From Planctomycetaceae bacterium (lineage in GTDB: Bacteria > Planctomycetota > Phycisphaerae > SM23-33), in assembly GCA_039680605.1 (NCBI GenBank), contig JBDKTA010000027.1, positions 1-64,000 of the forward strand: a stretch of 64,000 nt of DNA, given 5' to 3'. The position numbers and the translations under genes were made by a program. The notes under the pieces are model-generated. The model was not told the origin of the DNA. It worked only from the letters and a program-made list of their open reading frames with translations, and did not search any database. Below are positions 2,112 to 55,810 of the stretch, one piece after another; the stretch's first letter is position 1, and every line of letters begins with the position of its first letter.

Positions 2112-3587
2112 TCACGGTTTCCTCGCCGGGGTTGTCGGCGGGGCGAGTTTCTGGAGCACCTCGGGCGGGGCGATGTAGATCAGGCCGTCTCTGACGGCGT
2201 AGTCGATGGCCCCGGGCGGGGCGGCCTCGACCAGCGCCAGCCGCAGCGCGATGCGATTGGGCACGTTGCGCAATTCCAACGTCACCGGCGACGTGCGGGA
2301 GATATCCATCCGCCGCAGCGCCCGCCAGTCCATGAAGATGTTGGCGCCCGCAGACTCGCGCAGAAAAATCATCACCGCCTGCAACTCGGTCTTGTTGAAA
2401 TTGAACTCCGGAAAATCCGCTCCAAGTTTCTCGACCACCGCCCGATCAGCCGCCGTTGCGCCACGCTCGGGCCCCGCCCGCAGGCGTGAGGCGATGGCTG
2501 CCGCCGCCTCCGACGACGAGACGATCACAACGCCGGCGGCAATGTCATAGGTGGCTGTCCCGGCCGGAGCGGCCGCCGACAGCGCCAGCACCATCGCCAC
2601 GCGAACCGGAACGTTTTCAAGCTTGATGTTGACGGGCGTGTCGGGCGTGATGCCCGCCTTCTTCAGACCCCGCCAGTCCACGTACAGGTTGGCGGCGCTG
2701 GTCTTGCGGAAGAACTCCATCAGCGTCCCGAGGCGCGCCTCGGGCAGGTTCATCGACGGCACCAGCGCCGTCAGGGCACGCACGGCGGCGGTGTCGGCTT
2801 TGCCTTGCGGCCGCGGGCGGTGCTGCAGGTCCTGGCTCAGCCGCCCGAGCAACTCGGCCGACGTGACCACGACCACCCCGCCGCTGACTCCATAGGCGAG
2901 CTTGCCAGCCGCCGCCTCGGCCAGCGTCATCGACAGTCCCGCCGCCACGGTCGTGTCTCTCCGCTGGAGCGTAATGAGCGTATCGCCCGTGGCGCCGGCC
3001 TTCTTGAGCGCCCGCCAGTCGACAAAGACGTTCACCCCGGCCGTGCTGCGGAAGAACTCGATGGCATCGACGAGCTTGAACCGCTCGAAGGTCAACACCG
3101 GCAGGGAGGCCTGGAGCTTCTTAAGAACCGCCTGGTCCTGCTCGCCGGTCCCGGCGGCCACAGGCTGCGTAGCCGCCGCCTCGCTGGGACGCGTCGTCGC
3201 CACCGGCGGCATCGCCTTGAGCGCCGCCGGCGTGCCCACCACCACGCTCGTGCCGTGGACGACGTACTCGACTTCCCCAGGCCCCGCTGCCGCCGCCAGC
3301 ACCAGCCGCAGCGCCTGGGCGATCGTGACCTTCTTCAAGTGCAGCGTCACCGGCGTGCTCCGCAGCACCTCGACCGCCGTCAGCGATCTCCAGTCGACGC
3401 TGATTCCGACATCCGCCGCCTGCGCCAGAAACGCCACCGCATCGGCCAGCGCCACTTCGTCAAAATCCACCGTCGGCAGCACCACCGCCAACCGAGTCTG
3501 CACCGCGGCCTCATTCGCCGGCGGAGCAGCTAAGGCGACATTGGCCCAGGCTATCGCACATACCGCGATCAGTCCCATTTTGTGCAT
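2112..3587 (-). CDS. Exported protein with four STN-like repeats
   Basis: This 491-residue protein has a signal peptide (MHKMGLIAVCAIAW, cleaved after ALA) followed by four repeats of about 100 residues. Each repeat has the pattern F-x-E-x-x-L-x-D/A-A-x-x-F-L, then VDWRSL or VDWRGL, then TPVTLHLKKV, then QALRLVL, then YVV...VVVGT. That is the pattern of secretin/TonB short N-terminal (STN, N0-like) domains, as in PilQ and GspD. No secretin beta-domain follows. The start at 3587 is preferred over 3602 because AAGGA lies six bases upstream of it. The protein lies 18 bp after its paralogue at 3606-5189 and is probably co-transcribed with it. A periplasmic scaffold or binding role is only a guess. 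Confidence 0.8.
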   Translation of the reverse strand: MHKMGLIAVCAIAWANVALAAPPANEAAVQTRLAVVLPTVDFDEVALADAVAFLAQAADVGISVDWRSLTAVEVLRSTPVTLHLKKVTIAQALRLVLAAAAGPGEVEYVVHGTSVVVGTPAALKAMPPVATTRPSEAAATQPVAAGTGEQDQAVLKKLQASLPVLTFERFKLVDAIEFFRSTAGVNVFVDWRALKKAGATGDTLITLQRRDTTVAAGLSMTLAEAAAGKLAYGVSGGVVVVTSAELLGRLSQDLQHRPRPQGKADTAAVRALTALVPSMNLPEARLGTLMEFFRKTSAANLYVDWRGLKKAGITPDTPVNIKLENVPVRVAMVLALSAAAPAGTATYDIAAGVVIVSSSEAAAAIASRLRAGPERGATAADRAVVEKLGADFPEFNFNKTELQAVMIFLRESAGANIFMDWRALRRMDISRTSPVTLELRNVPNRIALRLALVEAAPPGAIDYAVRDGLIYIAPPEVLQKLAPPTTPARKP

Positions 3588-3605
3588 GATGAATCCTTTC
3601 ATCCG

Positions 3606-5189
3606 TCATTTCGGCTTTGGTACGGAAAGAATAACCTTTCCGTTCTCGATTCGGTACGTCAGGCCCTTGCCTTGGCCGGCACTGTCGAGGATGAGCGTCA
3701 GCGCCGTATGGAGAGAGACGTCGGTTCCAATATCAACTGTTACAGTCGCCGCGCGAGGAAGGGTGCTCTTCTCTGACAGCCGTTTGCTAAAGAATCCGAT
3801 TCCGACGGCATGGAGGGATGCCAGATCTGGAGAGATATCCACCTTGCTCAGATCCCGGATAAGACCAATGGAATCGTCCAGTTCAATTCCTTGAAGCTCA
3901 ATTCCAGGCAAATTGCCAGGCTTGTTTTGGGCCAGCCACTTCAGGTGTTCCTTCTCAAGAGCGGCCTCCATCATTCTCTTGGCCAGCGGCTCATCCGCGG
4001 GCTGGGCGGCGACGGGAGGCGTTTCAATCTGCTTTGTCAGCCGCTTGGCATCGTCGCAAGTGGAGACAATGACAACTCCGTCGGCGATTTCGTAGCCCAG
4101 TGATTCCTCACCGGCAACGTCTTTGAGACACACCAGCAAGCCTTGATGAACGGTCACGCCGCGCACGTGGACATTGACCGGGGTGCTCCTGCTGATCCCG
4201 GCTTGCGACAGGGCGTGCCAGTTCACGTAAATATCCTGGCCGCTGACATCCCGCATGAATTGAATTACATCCTCGAGTTCGATATCGTCAAACTTCAGTT
4301 CCTTAATCCGCTGCTCCAGCTTCCCGCGGACAGCGGCGTTGCGCGGTGTGCCACTGGCGGCCATCGGAGAAGACTCCAGCATCGCTGATATCTTCTTAAG
4401 CTCTCTGGGCGTAGAAATGACAATCACGCCGCCGGCGACGACGTAATCCAAAGGCGGGTCGACCTGGGCGGCTTCCAGACATAGAAGAATTGCCTGGTGA
4501 AGCGTGACATCCTGAAGATGCACGGTGACAGGCGCCGAGGCCCTCCTAAGGGCGCTGCGGGACACGTAGATGTTTTGGCCGCTGATGTCCCGCATGAACT
4601 GGATGATGTCTTTCAATTCGATGCCGTCGAAATTGAGTTCCTTGATGCGCTGCTGGATGGCGTCGCTAACCGCCTTGTTGCGAGGAGTGTCTTTGGCGAC
4701 TCCTGGAGCCGTTTCCATCATCGCCACCATTTTCTCAGCATCTTCAGCCGTCGAGATGATGATCTTCCCGTCGGCGATCCTGTAGGCAAGGGGGCCGCGG
4801 ACGTTTGTTGCATTAGCCAGACACAATTCGAGGCATCGCCGGACGGTCATATCCTCTTCATGGAACGTTACGGTCGATCCCTGCTTTCCCATGCCAACTT
4901 TGGACAGCTCGCCCCATCGCACGTAGATGTTCAGCCCGGTTGCACCCTGGATGAACTGGATCACATCCTTGAACTCGATCTCTTCGAAATCCAGCTTCTT
5001 GATATTCTGATCAAGAGCCTCGAGGGCACGCGCGTTTCGGGAAACCTCAGTCGTAGCCCGCGTGGCGCTTTGCGGGGGCTGGACTTGCTTCCGCACCTCC
5101 GGACCGCATCCCCACAGACACATCACGCTAGCCATGATCACAGGAGTTCGCGCCACGCACTTGTTCAGCGGTCGTTTCACGAGTATCAT
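3606..5189 (-). CDS. Lipoprotein with four STN-like repeats
   Basis: This 527-residue paralogue of the next gene carries a lipoprotein signal: a basic N-region (MILVKRPLNK), a hydrophobic stretch, and the lipobox LWGC near residue 28. Three closely similar STN/N0-like repeats follow, with signatures FKDVIQFIQGATG, LKDIIQFMRDISG and LEDVIQFMRDVSG, each then NIYV or DIYV, a PVTVHL strand, a helix ending in LLCLE, and a terminal VIVIST strand. A fourth, more diverged copy ends the protein. There is no secretin pore domain and no TonB box. It shares a 72-bp divergent promoter region with the MoxR gene. Membrane anchoring is well supported by the lipobox; the molecular function is unknown. Confidence 0.82.
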   Translation of the reverse strand: MILVKRPLNKCVARTPVIMASVMCLWGCGPEVRKQVQPPQSATRATTEVSRNARALEALDQNIKKLDFEEIEFKDVIQFIQGATGLNIYVRWGELSKVGMGKQGSTVTFHEEDMTVRRCLELCLANATNVRGPLAYRIADGKIIISTAEDAEKMVAMMETAPGVAKDTPRNKAVSDAIQQRIKELNFDGIELKDIIQFMRDISGQNIYVSRSALRRASAPVTVHLQDVTLHQAILLCLEAAQVDPPLDYVVAGGVIVISTPRELKKISAMLESSPMAASGTPRNAAVRGKLEQRIKELKFDDIELEDVIQFMRDVSGQDIYVNWHALSQAGISRSTPVNVHVRGVTVHQGLLVCLKDVAGEESLGYEIADGVVIVSTCDDAKRLTKQIETPPVAAQPADEPLAKRMMEAALEKEHLKWLAQNKPGNLPGIELQGIELDDSIGLIRDLSKVDISPDLASLHAVGIGFFSKRLSEKSTLPRAATVTVDIGTDVSLHTALTLILDSAGQGKGLTYRIENGKVILSVPKPK

Positions 5190-46597: not shown

Positions 46598-46672
46598 CGT
46601 TCCCCGCCGGTAGTCCTGCGCCCAAGCGAAATCTGTCGCCAGACAACCATGCACTACTTCAGTGCGCGGTAG
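46598..46672 (+). pseudogene. Duplicated 3' end of galM
   Basis: About 75 bases match the last 74 bases of the epimerase gene (46110-46183) at roughly 80-85 percent identity by eye, including CCGGTAGTCCTGCG, CGCCAGACAACCAT and GCGCGGTAG-type ends. The small membrane-protein gene lies between the two copies. It is not translated in context. It may mark the target duplication or recombination that inserted that gene. Confidence 0.8.
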
Positions 46673-46696
46673 AGTCGGTCGGTCATTCAAGTGCTG

Positions 46697-46790
46697 AGTA
46701 TTGGGCCACAGAGACACAGAAACACAGAGCAGGTTTGTTGCTTTCTATTTAGCGCCCTCTGTGACCTCTGTGTCTCTGTGGCCCAATACT
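46697..46790. repeat. CACAGAG-family inverted element
   Basis: AGTATTGGGCCACAGAGAC on the left faces its complement ending GGCCCAATACT on the right, with CACAGAG units between. The core includes GTTTGTTGCTT. It shares arms with 55688-55810. It lies after the duplicated galM end and before a toxin-antitoxin promoter. Confidence 0.9.
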
Positions 46791-46855
46791 GCTCATTTCA
46801 CGGCTGACGGAGCACTGGACGCGTGGGGAGGGCAGGTGGGTCTTCTCGGGAAAGG

Positions 46856-46894
46856 TTGTCTTGCTTAATGATAAAGTATACACTGTATGTATAC
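46856..46894 (+). promoter_or_regulatory. Promoter and operator of the AbrB-Doc operon
   Basis: The inverted repeat GTATAC-ACTGTAT-GTATAC (46876-46894) lies 17 bases before the antitoxin ATG. A possible -35 TTGTCT (46856-46861) and -10 TATACA (46877-46882) are 15 bp apart, so the dyad would overlap the -10 box. This is the standard layout for autorepression by an antitoxin or toxin-antitoxin complex. Confidence 0.55.
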
Positions 46895-46911
46895 GAAAGA
46901 GGTAAGAACGA

Positions 46912-47139
46912 ATGACCAAGACACTCATCAAGCACGGCAACAGTCTGGCCCTGGTGATCGATAAACCGATCCTGGAGATGCTGGATATTTCATCTGATAC
47001 GGCCTTGGAGGTGACCACCAACGGCGACGTGTTGATGGTTACCCCCGTTCGCGGCAAAGCACGTCAAAACAAGCTCCGCAAAGCCATTGGCAAGATCAAT
47101 CGCAGGTATGCGCCCGACCTCAAGCGGCTGGCGGAATGA
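46912..47139 (+). CDS. AbrB/MazE-type antitoxin
   Basis: This 75-residue protein has the swapped-hairpin AbrB fold: KHGNSLALVIDKPILEMLDI and ALEVTTNGDVLMVTPV are the two beta elements that form the DNA-binding dimer. The Lys/Arg-rich C-terminus (residues 46-75) would wrap the toxin. It neutralises a toxin and represses its own promoter. The next gene, three bases downstream, encodes a Doc toxin, so the pair is AbrB-Doc rather than the classical Phd-Doc. AGAGG lies about nine bases upstream of the ATG, and a GTATAC dyad overlaps the likely promoter. Confidence 0.88.
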   Translation: MTKTLIKHGNSLALVIDKPILEMLDISSDTALEVTTNGDVLMVTPVRGKARQNKLRKAIGKINRRYAPDLKRLAE

Positions 47140-47142
47140 GTC

Positions 47143-47523
47143 ATGGTCGATTTCCTTCAGCTCGACGACGTGCTGTGGCTGCACTCCGATCTGGTGGATC
47201 GCTATGGCGGCGAGCATGGGGTTCGTGATATGGGGCTGCTGGAATCCGCTCTCGCTCAGCCGAGAGCGACGTACGGCGGCAAGAGGCTACACAAGAATAT
47301 CTTCATGATGGCGGCCGCGTATCTGTTTCATGTCATTCGAAATCATCCATTTGTCGACGGCAATAAGCGCGCAGGCGCGGTTGCGGCGTTGCTTTTCCTT
47401 GACCTTAACGGCATCGAGGTTGTCGCCACAAAAGGAGCTTTATACGAGCTCACCATGGCGGTCACTACCGGGAAGGCGGACAAGGCCGCGATCGCAAAGT
47501 TCTTCCGCGCACATGTCGGATGA
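47143..47523 (+). CDS. Doc-type (Fic family) toxin
   Basis: This 126-residue toxin shows the family core HPFVDGNKRAG at residues 68-78, whose His is catalytic. Doc proteins phosphorylate elongation factor Tu and stop translation. The preceding helices (DMGLLESALAQP and AAYLFHVIRNHPF) are typical. The three-base gap to the antitoxin gene implies coupled translation. Its TGA overlaps the ATG of the next small gene (ATGA at 47520-47523), so it is also coupled downstream. All key residues appear intact, so it is probably active and needs the AbrB partner. Confidence 0.92.
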   Translation: MVDFLQLDDVLWLHSDLVDRYGGEHGVRDMGLLESALAQPRATYGGKRLHKNIFMMAAAYLFHVIRNHPFVDGNKRAGAVAALLFLDLNGIEVVATKGALYELTMAVTTGKADKAAIAKFFRAHVG

Positions 47524-47696
47524 GAAGACTGCGGGCGAGATCTCTTCAGGGAGAGGTCAAGCTTTTGCTGGAGCAGGCTGCCGGAGTCGACAAGACCGAA
47601 GTAGCCCGGGTTCTGGCTAAGTGGAAGAAGGAGTTTGCCGGAAAGAAGTTTTCGCCGGGCAGCGCGGACCTGATCCGCCAGGACCGCGACCGATGA
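47520..47696 (+). CDS. Truncated ribbon-helix-helix antitoxin (FitA/VapB-like)
   Basis: This 58-residue product reads like the C-terminal two thirds of a FitA-like antitoxin: RRLRA, then RSLQGEVKLLLEQAA (RHH helix), then FAGKKFSPGSADLIRQDRDR, the usual toxin-binding tail. Normal relatives have about 15-20 more N-terminal residues, including the DNA-contacting beta-strand, and about four residues between RRLRA and RSL; both are missing. The ATG overlaps the Doc stop and the TGA overlaps the PIN start (ATGA at 47693-47696), so the gene is translationally coupled on both sides. It could still bind its toxin without binding DNA; that is inference. Confidence 0.8.
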   Translation: MRRLRARSLQGEVKLLLEQAAGVDKTEVARVLAKWKKEFAGKKFSPGSADLIRQDRDR

Positions 47697-48118
47697 CCGC
47701 CGTGGTGCTTGATGCCAGCGTCATGGCGGCGGCCTTCTTTCAGGAAGAGCATGCGCCGGCCGCTCAACGACTGCTCCAGGGGGCCGTGGAGGTGCTGCAC
47801 GCGCCTGACTTGATTTATGCCGAGTTGGGCAATGTCATATGGAAGCGGTACTCACGCGGCGCTATTGCCCTGGAGAAGGCATCGGACCTGCTGGCCGACA
47901 TGCGTTTGGTTCCTCTGGAGATTACTCCAAGCCGGAACCTGGTCGAATCTGCACTTGAGATAGCCCTGAAGTTGAACCACTCAGTCTATGACTGCCTTTA
48001 TCTTGCCCTGGCTCTCAGCCACAACTGCGCCTTAATCACGGGCGACCAGCGTTTGATTGATCACGTCGCCCCCACCGCTTTTCGTAAGCACATCAAGTGG
48101 ATTGGGAAATTGCGTTGA
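47693..48118 (+). CDS. PIN-domain toxin (VapC/FitB-like)
   Basis: This 141-residue PIN ribonuclease has all four acidic positions visible: Asp7 (VVLDAS), Glu44 (IYAELGN), Asp100 (SVYDCLYLAL) and Asp118 (ITGDQRL). VapC-type toxins cut tRNA or rRNA. The gene overlaps the preceding truncated antitoxin by four bases, the typical order antitoxin then toxin. It is the last of four chained genes 46912-48118. It ends 79 bases before the convergent HEAT gene. It looks complete, so toxicity would have to be held by the shortened antitoxin. Confidence 0.92.
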   Translation: MTAVVLDASVMAAAFFQEEHAPAAQRLLQGAVEVLHAPDLIYAELGNVIWKRYSRGAIALEKASDLLADMRLVPLEITPSRNLVESALEIALKLNHSVYDCLYLALALSHNCALITGDQRLIDHVAPTAFRKHIKWIGKLR

Positions 48119-48197
48119 ACGTCGTTCTCCTGATTGCGGATCGGGCCGCATCCCCCCTACCCCCGGGTCCTGCCCAGTCCCAGGATCATGTTCCCTA

Positions 48198-49946
48198 TCA
48201 GTTACCCAGGCGCGCCTCTGCTTCATCCATGTCGAAACCGGGCAATCTGCCGGTTTCATGCTGACGGCGGATCAAGGCAAGCAGGCACCGGGCGGATGGT
48301 CCCACGCGCACCGCTGCGTGAGCGGCTAGTGCTCTAACTTGCTCGTCCGCATCGGTCAGCGTCTCGCGCAGAACGGGCAATTTATCCTGCACGTCCGCGA
48401 CGAGATCCAGCCAGACATCCAGCGCGATGAATCTGTTGGTGCCTTTGCCGGCTCTTATGTATTTCAGAAGGGCGGGGGCCAGAGGCGGCCATGAGAAGCG
48501 CCTGAAGGCATAGATGATATCGCTGATTGGATCTTCCTCATCGCCTTGATCCAGAGCATCCACCAGTGCCTGCGCCACTTCCGGACTGGGCGGGGTGTTA
48601 TGCCGGATCATGTTGCACAGCGAAAGCAATGCGTTGTATCGCACGTCCGGCTGATGCAGGAACGCCAGCACCGCTTGAGCCCCGGGACCGCGCGGGGCAC
48701 TGGCGTTGCCTATCGCCAGGATCAGCGGGCCGCGATGCGCGTGCCAGTGCGACTCCGTGAGCCAGTTCAGGAGATGCGGAAGTATTTCCGTTGGAGGCGG
48801 AGTGAAGTTCTCGAACGCCGCGGCCCCGCAGAGCTTGTCGGGAAACTCCGCCTGCCCGACCGTCTCAACCAGCACCTGCGGCGACTTGCAGTTGCCTATC
48901 CAGACCAGCGCACGCATTGCTGCGCGGATTACGGGCAGAGTCTGGTTCCTCCAGTCCCTCGCCAGTTCCGTCAGTGGCACCACTTCGCGGGCAGTTGTCC
49001 CCATCGCATTTGCCAGGACATCGCAGGTGGCCTGGCGGATTGCGGGATCGGGATCGCGAAGTGACGCCACAGCAGTATCTGCGGCCGGTGCAGCATCTTG
49101 GCCGAGCTCTGCCAGAGCCCTGAGCGCCGCGAGCAACTGCGGTGGTTGAGATGGCTCACAGGCCCCGGCCAGAGCCATAGCCAAACCGCCCAGCATATTG
49201 GTGGGCTTAATCCAGTCGGTACGTAGCGTATACCTGGACGAATATTCCAGCGCTTCCACCATTGCATCAAAGGATTCACACTTCTCAAGCGGCTCGGGCA
49301 TCACCGCAACGAGGTTGGCCCTGGCGGCCTCGGCGGGGCAACGTTTGGCAAGCTTCGCCAGCGCTGTCTCCGTCGCATGCGGGTAGAGGAAGTCTGGAGT
49401 GCCTCGTGCCTGCATGAGTACTTCGATTGTCTCGGACGCAGCGAAATGCCCCATCTCGCCCAGAGCCTCAATGGCCCCCTCGCGCGGGCCCTGACCGCGG
49501 TCGTCAGTCGAGGCAGCCTGGAGAAGCGCATCAATCGCGGCAGGAGATCCGATAGCCGCGAGGTCGGATGGAATGTAGATCGGTTCATGGGCCAGGCTCG
49601 GACCATGGAGCATGATGTCGCACATGTCAGGCACAGCCTCCGCAGCCGCGGGACCGATTGCCCCCAGTGCCGACAGGACATGCCGCAGGTGACGCCTGAC
49701 CTTGAGGAGTTGGATGAGCCGGGGAACCGCAATCCTGGCTGAAGGACCAATCTGCTCGATCACCATGACGGCGCGTTTAACAACTAACGGTTCAGAAGAG
49801 TCCAGTAGTTGGGTTGCCATGCAGGCCGCACGGGTCAGCCGCGATTCGGATTGGTCGGACATTAGCCGCGGGACCTGAATGTCCCGGATCACATTGTCTC
49901 GTTCCATTATATCGCGTGACTCGGTACCTGGCCAGACGCTTGCCAC
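48198..49946 (-). CDS. HEAT-repeat protein, cytoplasmic type
   Basis: This 582-residue protein starts at GTG 49946, chosen because AGGAGG lies seven bases upstream. Unlike the two giant HEAT proteins it has no signal peptide. Repeats of about 35-40 residues run throughout (IEQIGPSARIAVPRLIQLLK, LGAIGPAAAEAVPD, LRALAELGQDAAPAADTAVASL). No catalytic motif is visible. It is convergent with the toxin operon and preceded by a 414-bp gap. It may be a scaffold or binding protein for an unknown partner. Confidence 0.8.
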   Translation of the reverse strand: MASVWPGTESRDIMERDNVIRDIQVPRLMSDQSESRLTRAACMATQLLDSSEPLVVKRAVMVIEQIGPSARIAVPRLIQLLKVRRHLRHVLSALGAIGPAAAEAVPDMCDIMLHGPSLAHEPIYIPSDLAAIGSPAAIDALLQAASTDDRGQGPREGAIEALGEMGHFAASETIEVLMQARGTPDFLYPHATETALAKLAKRCPAEAARANLVAVMPEPLEKCESFDAMVEALEYSSRYTLRTDWIKPTNMLGGLAMALAGACEPSQPPQLLAALRALAELGQDAAPAADTAVASLRDPDPAIRQATCDVLANAMGTTAREVVPLTELARDWRNQTLPVIRAAMRALVWIGNCKSPQVLVETVGQAEFPDKLCGAAAFENFTPPPTEILPHLLNWLTESHWHAHRGPLILAIGNASAPRGPGAQAVLAFLHQPDVRYNALLSLCNMIRHNTPPSPEVAQALVDALDQGDEEDPISDIIYAFRRFSWPPLAPALLKYIRAGKGTNRFIALDVWLDLVADVQDKLPVLRETLTDADEQVRALAAHAAVRVGPSARCLLALIRRQHETGRLPGFDMDEAEARLGN

Positions 49947-55687: not shown

Positions 55688-55810
55688 GTTGGGCCACAGA
55701 GACACAGAGAACACAGAGACAGATTGGCAATAGAGACAACAAGGAAGTGAAGTTGCTTCTGCTGTTTCAATAATTCCAACTCTGTGTTCTCTGTGCCTCT
55801 GTGGCCCAAC
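55688..55810. repeat. CACAGAG-family inverted element
   Basis: GTTGGGCCACAGAGACACAG (from 55688) faces its complement ending GAGGCCCAAC-type sequence at 55810; 31 of 32 arm positions pair. The centre holds GTTGCTTC and a short AT-rich stretch. It lies between divergent purL and GH51 genes and ends four bases before a promoter. Confidence 0.92.

Follow-up and report, generated by a model that had tools for sequence, protein, structure and literature searches.

A probable fused dual toxin-antitoxin operon joining an AbrB-Doc module to a shortened FitAB-type vapBC pair in a planctomycete draft genome

In several toxin-antitoxin (TA) systems, the antitoxins have no DNA-binding domain and regulation is left to a separate protein. 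The origin of such antitoxins is seldom visible. In the three-component systems paaR2-paaA2-parE2 and omega-epsilon-zeta, regulation falls mainly or wholly to a different operon protein (PMC8630535, PMC4803016), and clusters of neighbouring TA pairs have been described as 'TAS islands' (PMC2701414). The composite type II system mazE-doc (tasAB) has been described and is widespread (PMC1626090). In VapBC systems, the C-terminal tail of VapB inhibits the toxin by aromatic packing and by an arginine in the active site, and FitAB behaves likewise (PMC3384007); in VapB5-VapC5, only residues 53-86 of VapB5 were modelled on VapC5 (PMC4803016). Tandem and three-component TA systems are already known; the hybrid operon presented here is a further variant, and a literature search, in which subscription journals were thinly covered, found no description of a fused operon of like kind.

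The locus lies in a window of 64,000 nucleotides, the whole stretch of DNA that was analysed, which comes from a 5.23-Mb draft genome in 72 contigs. Four genes follow one another on the + strand between 46912 and 48118 and encode an AbrB/MazE-type antitoxin, a Doc toxin, a 58-aa FitA/VapB-type antitoxin and a PIN/VapC toxin. A 3-bp gap separates abrB from doc, and ATGA overlaps connect doc to the short vapB and the short vapB to the PIN gene. The open reading frame coordinates agree with the gene order and spacing given in the first-pass annotation, and the GTATAC dyad that it had named was found at 46876-46894, 17 bp before the ATG of abrB.

46876..46894, no strand: 19-bp dyad GTATACACTGTATGTATAC, probable operator of the AbrB-Doc module, with perfect 7-bp arms and a 5-bp centre
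46896..46903, + strand: probable ribosome-binding site AAAGAGGT, read directly from the sequence
46912..47139, + strand: AbrB/MazE-type antitoxin, the partner of Doc, 75 aa (alignment with other abrB-doc antitoxins)
47143..47523, + strand: Doc toxin, 126 aa, with the Fic motif HPFVDGNKRAG (Pfam Fic, NCBIfam DOC_P1, PDB Doc 3k33)
47520..47535, + strand: putative fusion junction (comparison with the paralogue on contig C52 and with Doc relatives)
47520..47696, + strand: truncated FitA/VapB-type antitoxin, 58 aa, comprising helix B and the toxin-binding tail (family profile)
47693..48118, + strand: PIN/VapC (FitB-type) toxin, 141 aa (Pfam PIN; alignment of 23 homologues)

By its sequence, the AbrB-Doc half is an ordinary mazE-doc (tasAB) module that has kept its own conserved GTATAC operator. 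Doc passes the cut-offs of Pfam Fic (E=1.2e-19) and of NCBIfam DOC_P1, the death-on-curing family (E=1e-15), matches the Doc structure 3k33 in the PDB (E=1.1e-13), and its HPFVDGNKRAG follows the Fic-type HxFxxGNKR motif. Its C-terminus, FFRAHVG before the stop codon, aligns with the FFRSHAH and YFRAHAL that precede the stop in relatives, so the protein is complete to the natural stop of the family. As in TasA-TasB (PMC1626090), an AbrB/MazE-type antitoxin gene stands directly before doc. Its product aligns over its full length with antitoxins adjoining other Docs, while its matches to Pfam MazE_antitoxin (E=2e-4) and to TIGR02609 doc_partner (E=1.7e-4) fall under the curated cut-off of the former and the cut-off of the latter. 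Of the 14 near loci, 11, the window's included, carry the operator core TATACTNTGTGTATAC upstream of abrB at a distance of 31-36 bp (at most 4 mismatches; chance rate of 0.24% per shuffled sequence), and the conserved dyad at -33 is a candidate autoregulatory operator. Unlike TasA-TasB, the doc gene of the window has a second TA pair fused to its end. Elsewhere among the loci compared, the doc of L111 (G006:C209) has an in-frame TAG near codon 21 and is probably a pseudogene beside an intact AbrB antitoxin. A palindromic dispersed repeat (GGGCCACAGAGACACAGA ... TCTGTGTCTCTGTGGCCC) lies just upstream of the operon at 46697-46790, and also at 55689-55718 and 55780-55809; it has 27 matches in the genome, one of them, on C61, being 94% identical over 93 bp, flanking bases included.

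The second half resembles FitAB and the RHH-type VapBC systems (2h1o, 2bsq; PMC3384007) in its four-acid PIN toxin, the conserved arginine of its antitoxin tail and its ATGA overlap, but its antitoxin has neither the ribbon-helix-helix (RHH) start nor an operator. The short antitoxin matches the family profile with E=1.9e-21, covering positions 20-76 of 76 only, and compared with the 74%-identical paralogue on C52 it is without about 20 N-terminal residues, which correspond to strand 1 and at least the greater part of helix A. Among solved structures, FitA from FitAB (chains in 2h1o and 2bsq) comes nearest to it; set against these, the loss of the strand and of most or all of helix A means that the RHH dimer fold as a whole is missing. 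The first-pass annotation had reported the loss of the DNA-binding strand at the junction with doc: the strand is indeed absent, but the loss is larger than was claimed.

To judge from its homologues, the short form is derived and not the family standard. The same genome contains two more antitoxins of this family, both full-length (C52, 74% identical; C68, 53%) and each followed by a PIN gene, and 21 further homologues in relatives have a complete RHH start (MPDILIRGL or similar), that of L016 beginning one residue inside in the local alignment. A PIN gene comes directly after nearly all of these paralogues and homologues. In a scan of 397 class-level and 392 phylum-level genomes with the full-length family profile, which matched the window copy at positions 20-76 only, the only other strong N-terminally short match was G161, which borders a masked run of Ns that explains it. 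The G381 match is a fragment (positions 41-76) beginning at base 50 of the contig, and two more N-terminally short matches in the phylum, G553 and G708, are weak (E ~7e-4). All 26 other homologues, 23 from class-level relatives and 3 from viral contigs, have full or nearly full length, at about 76 aa. The possibility that relatives carry the short form as standard, which the first-pass annotation had named as a refutation, is thereby ruled out over these genomes.

A longer real start for the short antitoxin was excluded as well. No ATG, GTG or TTG lies in frame on the 5' side of 47520, where the DNA belongs to the conserved coding sequence of Doc in a different frame. A frameshift error hiding an RHH start was also ruled out, since the alignment of this stretch with Doc continues as far as the natural C-terminus. 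Searches with the short protein gave no match among plasmids and no close relative among viral contigs. On the viral contig L107 (IMGVR_UViG_3300049437_000260), positions 2001-2231 encode a full-length VapB of the window's family that is not followed by a PIN toxin and may be a phage-borne orphan antitoxin; 0.9 kb downstream of it on the same strand (3109-3723) lies an AbrB-Doc pair closely similar to that of the window.

The operator of vapB is missing together with the start of the gene. A copy of TATCATTATGATA with no more than 2 mismatches lies 34-47 bp upstream of the vapB start in 21 of the 26 full-length relatives (80 bp upstream were scanned), whereas only 0.08% of shuffled sequences contain it by chance. 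No such site precedes the short vapB of the window, where the best candidate has 7 mismatches and the end of the complete doc gene occupies the place of the operator. A sigma-70 consensus scan of 46600-48300 found no promoter-like site, not even upstream of abrB, and hence carries little weight. An independent promoter combined with a longer start, the other situation that would have spoken against the first-pass annotation, was thus not encountered: no alternative start would lengthen the second antitoxin, and no site resembling a promoter or an operator precedes it. Terminator-like matches at 47370-47994 fall inside genes and were not accepted as real. Beyond the operon, a gene for a HEAT-repeat protein (48198-49946, - strand) converges on it, and no terminator-like site was found between the two.

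The final bases of doc, GGATGA, provide the ATG of the short antitoxin. As doc is complete and homology to vapB is clear by 47535, the join is placed between the Doc stop (47523) and 47535. The MRRLRA with which the short protein begins may derive from the VRRLKA of the family through a further small internal deletion, or may be new sequence. The best reading of these alignments is that one deletion beside the stop codon of Doc joined two modules. This reading, already put forward in the first-pass annotation, is strengthened because the VapB operator and the DNA-binding part were lost together while Doc remained intact to its natural stop. In the relatives L112 and L107, doc closes with GTGA, in which a latent start codon overlaps the stop, so that a downstream reading frame would be easily captured. 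A search of viral contigs did not find the exact junction sequence.

The second module looks functional from what its sequences retain. All 15 of the 15 invariant or nearly invariant columns are kept in the remaining part of the antitoxin, which is 77% identical to the tail of the C52 paralogue, ends in LIRQDRDR and has the predicted toxin-blocking residues. The PIN toxin passes the Pfam PIN cut-off (E=1.5e-19) and has the four acidic residues of the family (in VLDAS, AELGN, VYDCLY and TGDQR) in the alignment of 23 homologues. The fused copy sits on a terminal branch of 0.26, no longer than the 0.33 of its intact sister. Between the antitoxin tails of the window and C52 copies, pairwise dN/dS comes to about 0.08, with dS near saturation; both figures include the time before the fusion. 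An ordinary branch length and such a ratio give no sign of decay. Nevertheless, as the RHH start and an own operator are two defining features of the family and both are absent, the second half is not classed as a complete VapBC member. Because the tails carry the inhibition in the solved VapBC complexes, a tail-only antitoxin is plausible, and the retained tail is predicted to silence the PIN toxin even without the RHH part.

The explanation that we consider reasonably probable is a fused dual TA operon, in which an AbrB-Doc module and a FitAB-type vapBC module were joined by deletion and the second came under the control of the first. The deletion would have removed the operator/promoter of vapBC, the vapB start and about 20 codons, leaving a vapB that begins at the ATG in the Doc stop region. 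A single transcript would then start from the GTATAC operator, repressed by AbrB (with Doc), and the overlaps do suggest co-transcription of the four genes. AbrB would neutralise Doc, and translation would be handed on by coupling, first from doc to the short vapB and then from vapB to the PIN gene. The shortened VapB would be unable to form RHH dimers or to bind DNA and would act as a neutraliser only, its tail wrapping the PIN toxin and its arginine entering the active site. Since such a protein neutralises without regulating, the level of VapC would be set by the first module, and the second module would be controlled only from the first module's promoter.

Alternatively, the short antitoxin could be a non-functional remnant, with the PIN toxin either restrained by the full-length VapB of C52 (cross-neutralisation) or poorly expressed. 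The 77% of the tail shared with that sister VapB, the 58% identity of the two PIN toxins and the placement of the window and C52 copies as mutually closest relatives (support of 0.995) are in keeping with this, and the antitoxin may depend on helix A for its stability, so that loss of the helix could destabilise the protein. Yet a remnant would hardly be expected to keep all its conserved tail residues, an open frame and an ATGA-coupled start, nor to show no added divergence relative to the intact sister, and we regard it as unlikely. It is also conceivable that the second half as a whole is silent or in decay, a recent functionless accident heading for loss, as could be suspected of a fusion seen in one genome and in none of the relatives. 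The intact PIN catalytic residues and antitoxin tail and the ordinary branch length make this quite improbable, and an active PIN toxin deprived of its antitoxin should be counter-selected.

The fused order has indeed been seen in one draft genome only. In the class sample, a comparison of coordinates found doc beside a window-type vapB in no other genome, and no PIN or RHH gene is present near 92 AbrB-Doc or Doc loci. The search for relatives with the same order and a full-length second antitoxin, which the first-pass annotation had proposed, consequently came back empty, as no other genome searched has the fused order, and the relatives compared include no second genome of the same genus. 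A chimeric contig might therefore be suspected in a 72-contig draft for whose junction no second copy was found. But the join falls within about 12 bp of the natural stop of Doc, in the right frame and forming an ATGA; the frame and the preceding A alone would arise in about 1 in 12 random joins, the position not being counted. Furthermore, the genome holds no broken-off N-terminal piece, and the paralogues, only 74% and 53% identical, are too different for a repeat-driven misjoin. Where the join lies and the frame it keeps make a chimeric contig unlikely, and we give an assembly artefact very little credence.

If the deletion-fused operon is accepted, it resembles the three-component systems in that control is proposed to lie with an operon protein other than the neutralising antitoxin. 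It differs from them in that the regulator would double as antitoxin to a further toxin, in having four genes and two toxins, and in that its origin by deletion is visible. As in the TAS islands, TA pairs of different classes adjoin each other, but the pairs are separate there, whereas those of the window share an operon through overlapping codons and one antitoxin is without self-regulation. We see about an even chance that a deletion turned two independent addiction modules into a co-regulated two-toxin operon with a 58-aa minimal neutraliser, in which the first antitoxin governs both toxins. Because both halves, their intact relatives and both operators can be identified, the step of loss and capture can be read directly here: an operator and a DNA-binding part lost together, and capture by an upstream TA operon. 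If true, this would be a route to antitoxins without DNA-binding domains and to multi-component TA operons caught in the act, and the 58-aa protein would be a natural minimal VapB that bears on whether the RHH domain is dispensable for neutralisation.
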